Program-made: the position numbers and the translations under genes
Part shown: positions 58,249 through 60,762 of the stretch, piece after piece
Layout of the letters: the number at the start of each line of letters is the position of its first letter
Position numbering within the stretch: position 1 is the stretch's first letter
Source of the DNA: Hymenobacter sublimis
Lineage (GTDB): Bacteria; Bacteroidota; Bacteroidia; Cytophagales; Hymenobacteraceae
Assembly: GCF_023101345.1 (NCBI RefSeq)
Contig: NZ_CP095848.1
Coordinates: forward strand, 2,940,001 to 3,004,000
DNA: 64,000 bases
Direction of reading: 5' to 3'
Notes under the pieces: generated by a model
Told to the model about the DNA's origin: nothing
Seen by the model: the letters and a program-made list of their open reading frames with translations, nothing else
The model's database searches: none

Positions 58249-58467
58249 CTATTCCTGGGCTGATTGCTGGATGTCGGAGCGGTCCGATTTGGTTTGGCCG
58301 CCGCCTTCCAGGCCGTTGGTTTGGTCACTGTCGCCGTAGCCACCGCGGATGCCGGCGCCGCTGTCGTTTGCCAGCTCTTCTTGGGTGGTGGCGGGTTGTT
58401 TGGGGGTAGTAGCGGGGTTGCTGTCCGGCTGGCCCTGGGGTTGCGGGGTGTTTTGGTCGTTAGCCAT
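58249..58467 (-). CDS. Small disordered hypothetical protein
   Basis: 72 residues, no signal or membrane segment, rich in Gln, Gly, Asp, Thr and Pro (MANDQNTPQPQGQPDSNP). Composition predicts an unfolded hydrophilic protein. It is paired with the next gene (58497-58802), 29 bases upstream, of similar composition. No family recognised. Confidence 0.6.
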   Translation of the reverse strand: MANDQNTPQPQGQPDSNPATTPKQPATTQEELANDSGAGIRGGYGDSDQTNGLEGGGQTKSDRSDIQQSAQE

Positions 58468-58496
58468 GATAGAGGAAGTAGGATGAAAGCTGATGG

Positions 58497-58802
58497 TTAG
58501 AGGTTTACCTTGCCGGTTTCGCCGCCCGATACGCCGGTGCCGGCACTGGCCGTATTACCGCCGACGTCGCCGTCCTGGGCGTTGCCGGGAGCGTCGTAGT
58601 TAGGAGCACCGGAGCGCACCCGGGCGCCGCTGATGGCTTGGCCGCCTTCGGTGCTGCCGCTGCCGGAGTTATCATCGGCGTTAAGGCCGGTATCGTGGCT
58701 GCCGGGAAAGATGCGGCCTTCGGGCTGGCTGTCGTTGGAGAGGGCGTCGGGCCGGTTCGGCAGGGAGCTAGCGTCCAGGGGTTCTTCGCGGGGAGTATCC
58801 AT
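58497..58802 (-). CDS. Disordered Gly/Asp-rich hypothetical protein
   Basis: 101 residues; Gly, Asp, Ser, Asn and Ala make up most of it (for example NADDNSGSGSTEGGQ), with no cysteine and few hydrophobics. Probably intrinsically disordered and heat-soluble. Likely cotranscribed with the 58249 gene. Confidence 0.6.
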   Translation of the reverse strand: MDTPREEPLDASSLPNRPDALSNDSQPEGRIFPGSHDTGLNADDNSGSGSTEGGQAISGARVRSGAPNYDAPGNAQDGDVGGNTASAGTGVSGGETGKVNL

Positions 58803-58958: not shown

Positions 58959-59807
58959 ATGGCTGCCTCTTCTACCCCCGACTCTTTCCTGCAAAAACCA
59001 ACCGAGGAGCTGCTTTTCCTGGTGCAGAACCCCGAGTTGTACCATCCTTCTTTGGTAGCCGAAGCCGGCCGGGAGCTGCGCCGCCGCGGGGCGAGCCTGC
59101 CGCCCCCCCCTACCCCGGAGGCCACTGCTGCCCCAGAGTCTGCCTACCCTGAGTCAGTGCCCGAAACCTCTGCCGGGGCCCGGTGGTGGCCGGCCGGCGT
59201 GCTGGCTGCCGCGGTGCTGGGGCTGGGCTGGTGGGGCCTGCACACTCCAACGAAACCTGCTACGCCGCCCGCATCGGTAGCAGCCAAAAAGGCCGAGCCC
59301 ATTGTGTTGGAAGCCGTAAAAACCGAGCGCCTACCCGATTTCGAAGCCAAAACGGCTGCCCAAGTGGCGGAGCTGCGCCGCCTGCTCCCGGCCGCCGACC
59401 GCGCCGACACTACCGCCACCGGCCGCTACCTACGCATGGCCCGGCGCTACTGGCTGGCAGAAAACGCCGCGGCCCACCTCACCAGCCAAGCCCGCACCGG
59501 GGCCGTAACGGCCGTATTTCCTGGGCAGGTTGACCTCACGCTGGAGCGCATTACCTGGTTTATGCGGGCTAAGGCCTACAATCAGCACCTAACCGCTACC
59601 ATGGAGGAGCGCCTGAACCTCATGCAGCAGGGCCTAACCCTGCGCCGTAGCTCCCTGCAGGTATTCAAGTCCCGCTACGAGGCTCAGATGCAGCTACTGG
59701 ACCCGCAGGAGGAGAAGGTAAACCAGGAAGCCATTGGCCTGGCCGAGGAACTGCGCGGCCACTACCAACGCAAGCAGCCCCTGCGCGGCAACATCACGGA
59801 GCTGTAG
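58959..59807 (+). CDS. Membrane protein with shared N-terminal module
   Basis: 282 residues. Residues 10-43 (FLQKPTEELLFLVQ...RELRRR) match, without gaps, the N-terminus of the rhomboid gene that follows. A proline-rich linker (47-70) leads to one membrane segment (76-95, WWPAGVLAAAVLGLG), and a long helical C-terminal domain (about 115-282) lies on the other side. No known family for the C-terminus. 109 bases separate its stop from the rhomboid start. Confidence 0.75.
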   Translation: MAASSTPDSFLQKPTEELLFLVQNPELYHPSLVAEAGRELRRRGASLPPPPTPEATAAPESAYPESVPETSAGARWWPAGVLAAAVLGLGWWGLHTPTKPATPPASVAAKKAEPIVLEAVKTERLPDFEAKTAAQVAELRRLLPAADRADTTATGRYLRMARRYWLAENAAAHLTSQARTGAVTAVFPGQVDLTLERITWFMRAKAYNQHLTATMEERLNLMQQGLTLRRSSLQVFKSRYEAQMQLLDPQEEKVNQEAIGLAEELRGHYQRKQPLRGNITEL

Positions 59808-59916
59808 GCGCGGGCGCAATCCTGTCAGGTGGGCGGGGGCTGGCAGGATTTATGACGCGCCAATGAGGCCGCGCCGGCGCTTTGTAGCGGGCGCGGCCTC
59901 GTTGTATTTCCTGCGT

Positions 59917-60762
59917 ATGTCTGCCCCCGACCCCGCTGCCTTATTCGCCCAGAAGACGGACGCTGAGCTGCTTTACCTGGCCCAGCACGCCCACCAGTAC
60001 CCGCCCGTGGTAGGCCAGGCCGCCGTGCGCGAGCTGCAACGGCGCGAACTGATTCCGGATGAGCTGCCCGCCGGCCCGGTGCCGCGCCCTGCCGAAGTGC
60101 CAGCACCCGAACCTAGCGCGGGCACCCTGGCCTGGCGCGCCTTGCGGGGCGTGAGCTGGCCCCGGCCCGGCTACCGAGTAACGCCCCTGCTGCTCTGGCT
60201 GAACGTGCTGGTGTACCTGGCCATGGTAGCCACCGGCGTACATGCCTGGCAGCCCGCCGGGGCCGACTTGGTGCGCTGGGGTTCCAACTTCTCGCCCCTA
60301 ACCCCTACCCAGCCCTGGCGCCTGCTCACCAGCTGCTTTGTGCACGGGGGCGCCGCCCACCTTCTGCTGAATATGGCTTCCCTGGTGTTTCTGGGGTTGC
60401 TTGCCGAGGGTTTCGTGGGTGGGCGCCGCCTGGTGGTGGGCTACTTGCTGAGCGGGGTGGGCGGCAGCCTGCTGAGCTGGTACTGGCATTCTCAGGGCTT
60501 AAATTCCGTGGGGGCCTCGGGGGCTATTTTCGGGTGGTACGGCCTGCTGCTCGCTACCCTGGTGCGGCGCCCCGCTACCTTCACCCGGACCGGGCGCTAC
60601 ACCATGCTGCTGTTTGTTTTCTACCTGCTAGCCAGTAGCCTGGCCGGTGGCCTGCAAGCCCACACCACCGATAACGCCGCCCACGTAGGTGGCCTGCTTA
60701 CCGGCAGCCTGTTGGGTTTACTGGCTTCCCCATCCGCATCTTCCCGGCAGAATATGGAGTAG
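59917..60762 (+). CDS. Rhomboid-family intramembrane serine protease
   Basis: 281 residues. Six or so membrane segments with GASGAIFG holding catalytic Ser201 and AAHVGG holding His256; HGGAAHLLLNM is the usual loop motif. An N-terminal cytoplasmic module (residues 10-43) is shared with the preceding protein, 16 of 34 residues identical. The ATG at 59917 starts that module. It cleaves membrane-protein helices; the upstream membrane protein is a candidate partner or substrate. Confidence 0.9.
   Translation: MSAPDPAALFAQKTDAELLYLAQHAHQYPPVVGQAAVRELQRRELIPDELPAGPVPRPAEVPAPEPSAGTLAWRALRGVSWPRPGYRVTPLLLWLNVLVYLAMVATGVHAWQPAGADLVRWGSNFSPLTPTQPWRLLTSCFVHGGAAHLLLNMASLVFLGLLAEGFVGGRRLVVGYLLSGVGGSLLSWYWHSQGLNSVGASGAIFGWYGLLLATLVRRPATFTRTGRYTMLLFVFYLLASSLAGGLQAHTTDNAAHVGGLLTGSLLGLLASPSASSRQNME

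Follow-up and report, generated by a model that had tools for sequence, protein, structure and literature searches.

In the 64,000-nt stretch of the Hymenobacter sublimis genome analysed here (the window, to which all positions refer), two neighbouring genes encode a membrane protein, which we call P1, and a rhomboid intramembrane serine protease, P2, both of which begin with the same short helical module. We propose that P1 and P2 are probably the two halves of what is a single polypeptide in related bacteria and that P1 is a partner subunit of P2. What was observed directly is that the modules are homologous, that the pair is conserved, that a long one-chain relative exists and that P1 was not found where this long form occurs; the most likely explanation is that P1 is a split-off half of a rhomboid and serves it as a partner, not as a substrate. 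The two genes lie on the plus strand, 109 bp apart, and are composed as follows (pLDDT is the predicted local distance difference test score of AlphaFold2):

58959..59807, + strand: P1, 282 aa, consisting of module, proline-rich linker, one membrane helix, linker and periplasmic four-helix bundle (AlphaFold2 mean pLDDT 82.2; orthologues)
58983..59099, + strand: P1 module, residues 9-47 (16/34 identity to P2; hhalign E=1.1e-19; AlphaFold2 helices)
59187..59237, + strand: predicted membrane helix of P1, residues 77-93 (AlphaFold2 helix; the most hydrophobic 17-residue stretch begins at residue 78)
59343..59753, + strand: periplasmic helical bundle of P1, residues 129-265, very probably a relative of the long-rhomboid C-terminal domain (residues 131-270 with block pLDDT 91-98; hhalign)
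59917..60762, + strand: P2, 281 aa, module and rhomboid intramembrane serine protease (PF01694 E=9.2e-29; AlphaFold2 mean pLDDT 88.2)
59932..60057, + strand: P2 module, residues 6-47 (AlphaFold2 helices; kept in orthologues)
60307..60729, + strand: P2 rhomboid domain, residues 131-271 by Pfam (PF01694)
60517..60519, + strand: codon of the catalytic Ser201 (GASG) of P2 (invariant in 42 aligned sequences)
60682..60684, + strand: codon of the catalytic His256 of P2 (invariant in 42 aligned sequences)

P1 and P2 begin with a common helical module

The original prediction, which was made from the DNA sequence of the window, held that residues 10-43 of the two proteins align without gaps and with 16 identical residues out of 34. 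This was borne out, as the best ungapped BLOSUM62 score between P1 and P2 is 70, whereas 300 shuffles of P2 reached no more than 54, and a comparison of the module profiles of 11 P1 and 10 P2 orthologues gave the E-value listed above. The proposed helix pair had to be amended: AlphaFold2 models three helices, not two, in both proteins (approximately residues 9-12, or 6-11 in P2, then 15-23 and 30-42), and the block pLDDT for residues 11-50 is 89-92 in P1 and 92-97 in P2. In the module region of the scanned carriers, every Pfam and NCBIfam model stays below its cut-off, with a few sub-threshold matches overlapping the module. Taken together, these data support the module as a genuine conserved helical element of both P1 and P2.

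Lys13, Leu18, Tyr28, Ala36, Glu39 and Leu40 are invariant in 40 P1 modules, and Ala16, Glu17, Leu18, Tyr28, Ala36, Glu39, Leu40, Arg43 and Leu45 are invariant in 40 P2 modules. This pattern of conservation, which includes charged residues, suggests a binding surface. The modules also show fixed differences, with Pro25 in 38 of 40 P1 and Ala25 in 33 of 40 P2. In a wide alignment, the mean identity of P1 to P2 modules is 43%, that to other carriers 21-34% and that to the long rhomboids described below 25%. A tandem duplication could in principle have placed the module in both genes, where it would persist by chance or because it aids the stability or topology of the proteins, without any binding role. 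The adjacency of the genes would agree with such an origin, and so would the low pLDDT of the P1 stretches that link the module, the membrane helix and the bundle, but the putative binding surface conserved in both sets of modules speaks against it and makes it highly improbable. Gene conversion between the P1 and P2 modules was not seen, their identity being equal within and between genomes.

P2 is a rhomboid and P1 carries a periplasmic bundle

P2 had been described as a complete rhomboid with Ser201 and His256, and this description stands. PF01694 matches it with 100.9 bits against a cut-off of 22.6, and the catalytic dyad is invariant across all aligned P2 sequences. Judged by its sequence, P2 is a rhomboid, and intramembrane proteolysis is its predicted activity. 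Two narrower assignments were rejected, rhombosortase (TIGR03902; 46.7 bits against a cut-off of 84) and GlpG (TIGR04239; 37.9 bits against a cut-off of 250).

The AlphaFold2 model of P1 likewise agrees with the earlier description of one membrane segment followed by a large helical domain, as it contains a single membrane helix (residues 77-93), rich in Ala and Gly, and then a helical domain (residues 129-265). P1 is expected to have an N-in/C-out topology, and the module should lie on the cytoplasmic side in both P1 and P2. The top structural match of the bundle is 4k0d (Z 9.5, root-mean-square deviation 3.4 over 118 residues), with chemoreceptor domains next and designed and unrelated bundles at an equal level; for helical bundles, Z below about 13 is uninformative. 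Foldseek gave no match for the bundle at E<=0.001, and sequence relatives in the PDB, none better than E=0.03 for the module or 0.23 for the bundle, were taken as chance. The TonB plug (PF07715) has no match in P1 of the window at E<=10, this P1 being without a plug-like tail, and DUF2007 (PF09413) has none in P1 or P2 at E<=10.

The pair is conserved in most Hymenobacter

P1 with its module region was read in 98 of 101 searched genomes of the genus (97 from the search table and G051 after reading the locus), the other three, G021, G031 and G033, having given only a short N-terminal or weak match in this search. A profile of the periplasmic domain recovered a diverged P1 in G021 and G033; in G031, P1 was found neither by the P1 search nor by this profile. 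Among 43 named loci, all of them from Hymenobacter, P1 lies upstream of P2 in 42, and at the remaining one (L212, H. daecheongensis) P2 has its module and P1 was not found at the locus. The module is in frame in 41 of 42 P1, the exception being L209, where the tblastn match to P1 begins at residue 1, so that the module is probably in another frame. It is in frame in 42 of 43 P2 (at L190 it is in another frame). In 57 of the 58 genomes that appear in both tables, P2 is found on the same strand within 3 kb downstream of P1 (the exception is G033), and the median distance between the matched parts of the two genes is 264 bp. The data thus support the conclusion that the P1 and P2 genes travel together.

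At three loci (L190:4916-5814, L209:4001-5079 and L267:1315-2282) P1 or P2 seems to be frame-broken between the module and the remainder, and these breaks could be assembly errors. At three others (L192:4879-5805, L194:4887-5807 and L200:4866-5798) a gene on the opposite strand, which from our own reading of its sequence we take to be FkbM-methyltransferase-like, stands between P1 and P2, the pair still being neighbours.

In G021 and G033, P1 and P2 are on different contigs. In both genomes P1 is without the module and retains a hydrophobic anchor, and P2 has kept its module. The two unlinked P1 are 75% identical to each other, so that they probably go back to a single unlinking. From this it seems that P1 depends on the module beside P2 and that P2 uses it for something else too. 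A lipobox does not fit the hydrophobic segments of the unlinked P1, whose hydrophobicity is close to that of the P1 membrane helix; we read them as the kept membrane anchor. The unlinked P1 of G033 still adjoins two of the genes that neighbour the pair in the window. Two small low-complexity open reading frames (ORFs) on the minus strand lie upstream of P1 in the window, at 58249-58802, and a 34-residue match to this stretch is found near the unlinked P1 of G033 (L266). Its presence there may mark the ancestral place of P1.

Long rhomboids probably contain the parts of the pair in one chain

Searching the family with P2 revealed, in another genus of the same family (g2), long one-chain rhomboids (L113-L117 and L125-L144) that are arranged in the order module, rhomboid core, extra membrane helix, periplasmic helical domain and, often, a plug-like end. 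Other Bacteroidia have long rhomboids too (L243-L253 and L255-L259). By inspection, the module is present in 20 of 22 distinct long rhomboids, L118 and L119 having another N-terminus, and a profile of the long-rhomboid N-termini matches that of the module at E=7.6e-8, a score that none of 200 shuffles reached.

The C-terminal domain of the long rhomboids resembles the bundle of P1. An hhalign comparison of 61 P1 domains with 38 C-terminal domains yielded a score of 26.6-26.9 and E=7.6e-4 over 114 colinear columns. This score was not reached in any of 500 shuffles (200 of columns, 150 of 7-column blocks and 150 of 14-column blocks; maximum 20.3), and the reversed profile scores 11.2 against 26.9. 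Smaller sets gave E=0.0034 and E=0.002 (0 of 200 column shuffles for the latter), and with the linker, membrane helix and plug region included in the set, E was 3.8e-5 and the probability 71%. Reciprocal searches with hidden Markov models in a redundant pool of 1743 ORFs, in which the top-ranking L165-L168 were fetched by these same searches and are unrelated, point the same way: long rhomboids apart, most proteins that the C-terminal-domain profile hits weakly are P1, matched in its C-terminal part, and most that the P1 profile hits weakly are long rhomboids. A hit of the C-terminal-domain profile in G071 was rejected on reading as an unrelated helical protein. The statistical support is of modest strength; it is nevertheless very probable, as far as profiles can tell, that the bundle of P1 and the C-terminal domain are homologous.

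The plug-like end was recognised by its motif in 16 of 22 long rhomboids and in 8 of 51 P1, and the ends of 8 P1 and 14 rhomboids match each other at E=2e-20. The end of L115 exceeds the cut-off of the Pfam Plug family (PF07715; 30.1 against 23.9 bits), L116 has no Plug match at E<=1, and the ends of four P1 orthologues are all below the cut-off (15.2 bits, 13.7 bits and two without a hit at E<=0.1). In L121:2827-4680 and L122:2010-3845, which belong to another rhomboid type with the rhomboid match starting at about residue 400, we read a plug-like motif within the long N-terminal extension.

Strong hits of the C-terminal-domain profile (E<1e-30) among 120 genomes comprise 25 from g2, one from g80, one from g82 and none from Hymenobacter. 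P1 was recognised in 0 of the 25 g2 genomes with such a hit; the one P1-profile hit in g2 (G269, E=0.122) lies inside an unrelated frame of 1206 residues. In the class-wide search, 17 of 346 genomes had a match to the C-terminal domain. Thirteen of the matched proteins were read: 12 are rhomboids, and the other, L254, is a membrane protein that is not a rhomboid. According to our reading, eight of these 12 rhomboids begin with another region of about 130 residues, three have a short N-terminus and one has no complete in-frame start. A tree of 67 rhomboid cores places P2 together with the g82 rhomboids on a single branch (89/92). This branch is nested in a clade (83/91) whose remaining rows are from loci with the C-terminal domain, and both forks are below the mark of strong support. 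This placement fits a loss of the C-terminal domain from the P2 chain. The tree did not resolve the module-bearing rhomboids as one clade, and the long rhomboids of g2 group with rows in whose proteins no module is seen (94/91).

Since other rhomboids have, within their own polypeptide, a domain that resembles the periplasmic one of P1, P1 is better understood as a subunit than as a substrate of P2. The original prediction had suggested that the module might pair the protease with its substrate; P2 would then cleave P1 within its membrane helix and thereby free the periplasmic domain, the module serving to unite the two proteins. The neighbouring genes and the single Ala/Gly-rich membrane helix of P1 would suit such a relationship, but besides the place of the related domain in the protease chain of other genera, the N-in/C-out topology expected for P1 is the reverse of that of the usual rhomboid substrates, which are type I proteins. 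Cleavage of P1 by P2 is accordingly improbable in our judgement.

The module occurs outside the pair

The profile search that had been suggested for the module showed it to be present also in other membrane proteins of Bacteroidota, with a match at E<=0.01 in 32 of 345 genomes sampled across the phylum, the weakest of these matches being partial. The window's genome itself has four strong matches (E<=2e-6) in four different proteins: P1, P2, L041, which is itself a row of the profile that matched it, and L042. The latter two (L041:1174-1905 and L042:1456-2145, both outside the window) are membrane proteins with two and four hydrophobic segments, respectively, and no Pfam match above cut-off. 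We take the start of L041 to be DUF2007-like, and proteins of the same build, with such a start, the module and two membrane helices, are present in several families of Bacteroidota; the module-bearing L215 has a sub-threshold match to DUF2007 (PF09413; 17.7 against 25.7 bits). The profiles class a further 46 distinct module-bearing ORFs as neither P1 nor rhomboid (we take nine of them for truncated or frameshifted parts of P1 or P2). A hydrophobic segment follows the module in 34 of the 46, precedes it in 1 and is missing after it in 12. The module thus mostly precedes membrane helices, which would place it on the cytoplasmic side. It is not private to the P1/P2 pair.

Several findings weigh against the proposed split and against the tethering of its halves by the module. 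Over 40 genomes, P1 and P2 modules from one genome share 43.4% identity and those from different genomes 43.7%, and hence there is no indication of genome-by-genome matching of the two. The P2 of G031 keeps its module though P1 was not found there, and g82, which is another genus, has a module-bearing rhomboid in 8 of 8 genomes and no P1 match at E<=0.01 (two weaker hits of the P1 profile lie in frames of 549 and 516 residues). P2 therefore keeps the module where P1 was not found, and the module has some role that is independent of P1. As for the homology of the periplasmic domains, the hhalign probability for the bundle alone is 25%, and it is 13.9% and 9.5% for the smaller sets. In the genome search, G064 was the single genome in which the C-terminal-domain profile matched P1 (E=0.018), and the window's genome gave it no match at E<=1; none of 25 genomes yielded a long rhomboid to the P1 profile. 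The best hits of the P1 profile outside the genus, from other families (G122, G136 and G151), look to us like TolC-type outer-membrane proteins and were taken as chance. The first module profile (A3) missed the module in the five long rhomboids of g2 that were searched with it at E<0.5, and profile-profile comparison alone found it there. Lastly, a non-rhomboid membrane protein (L254:1456-2253, minus strand) ends in the C-terminal helical domain of the long rhomboids.

Many of these observations would also be expected if inner-membrane proteins of Bacteroidota generally used the module, on the cytoplasmic side, to bind one and the same cytosolic partner, such as a scaffold or quality-control machinery, with P1 and P2 as independent carriers that need not touch each other. 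The four strong copies in four different proteins of the window's genome agree with this, as do the hydrophobic segments placed after the module in most further carriers, the retention of the P2 module where P1 was not found and the equal module identity within and between genomes. GpsB, which acts in this way for peptidoglycan synthases (PMC6335420), offers a precedent. On the other hand, the modules of P1 and P2 are closer to each other than to those of the other aligned carriers, the two genes are neighbours in 57 of 58 genomes, and P1 is without the module where it is unlinked from P2. On balance, we regard independent carriers of a common-partner element as rather unlikely. Also of note is that the divergence of P1 and P2 modules correlates beyond that of their other domains (partial r=0.387), which is suggestive only, as the permutation breaks kinship.

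The common cytoplasmic docking envisaged in the original prediction is thus retained in part. The conserved helical module, the genes that travel together and the absence of the module from unlinked P1 are all in favour of it; docking of P1 and P2 exclusively to each other is argued against by the further carriers of the module, by its retention in P2 of G031 and g82 and by the lack of matching within genomes.

A possible two-chain rhomboid

We return to the proposal that P1 and P2 are the halves of a split rhomboid, which follows the logic of gene fusion. P2 would be the catalytic half (module and rhomboid) and P1 the periplasmic half (module, membrane helix and bundle), which in some species would end in a plug-like tail. 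P1 would most likely be a periplasmic subunit of P2 that senses signals or presents clients, the sensing function being our inference. The duplicated N-terminal module would most likely help to hold P1 and P2 together on the cytoplasmic side, either by mutual binding or through a common partner; both a physical P1-P2 complex and its tethering by the module are what we would expect from the arrangement. Only tentatively do we put forward the full scenario, in which evolution divided an intramembrane protease into one chain for catalysis and another that serves as a receptor in the periplasm, and in which a duplicated cytoplasmic helical module brings the two back together non-covalently, the second chain sensing or presenting periplasmic clients.

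The roles and regulators of most bacterial rhomboids are unknown, and a natural split of the chain is a strong lead to a partner subunit. P1 and P2 offer a testable pair in an environmental genus, and the module is a candidate for a general docking element of Bacteroidota inner-membrane proteins. A literature search, which for broader topics covered the top-ranked results only, found no paper on the P1/P2 pair.

Comparison with known systems

The closest relatives in composition are the long rhomboids of g2 and other Bacteroidia, which combine a rhomboid core with a C-terminal domain that is very probably related to P1 and, in g2, also have the module and often a plug-like end. They consist of one chain, whereas P1 and P2 are two. 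The TonB receptor plug (PF07715) is represented by the end of one long rhomboid (L115), which passes the Pfam cut-off; a related, sub-threshold end is found in some P1 orthologues and none in P1 of the window. The bundle of P1 may resemble the four-helix-bundle periplasmic sensor domains of chemoreceptors and histidine kinases, although its Z-score to 4k0d is of a size that is common among helical bundles.

Among cytosolic N-terminal domains that tune a rhomboid, the closest functional precedent is found in YqgP of Bacillus subtilis, a rhomboid that serves as an adaptor for FtsH (PMC7231995). The module differs in being a helical element of 40 residues that is common to a neighbouring protein, and the proposed partner would be a split-off piece of a rhomboid instead of an AAA protease. 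For a short cytoplasmic N-terminal element that is common to several membrane proteins, the nearest precedent, by analogy only, is the GpsB system (PMC6335420).
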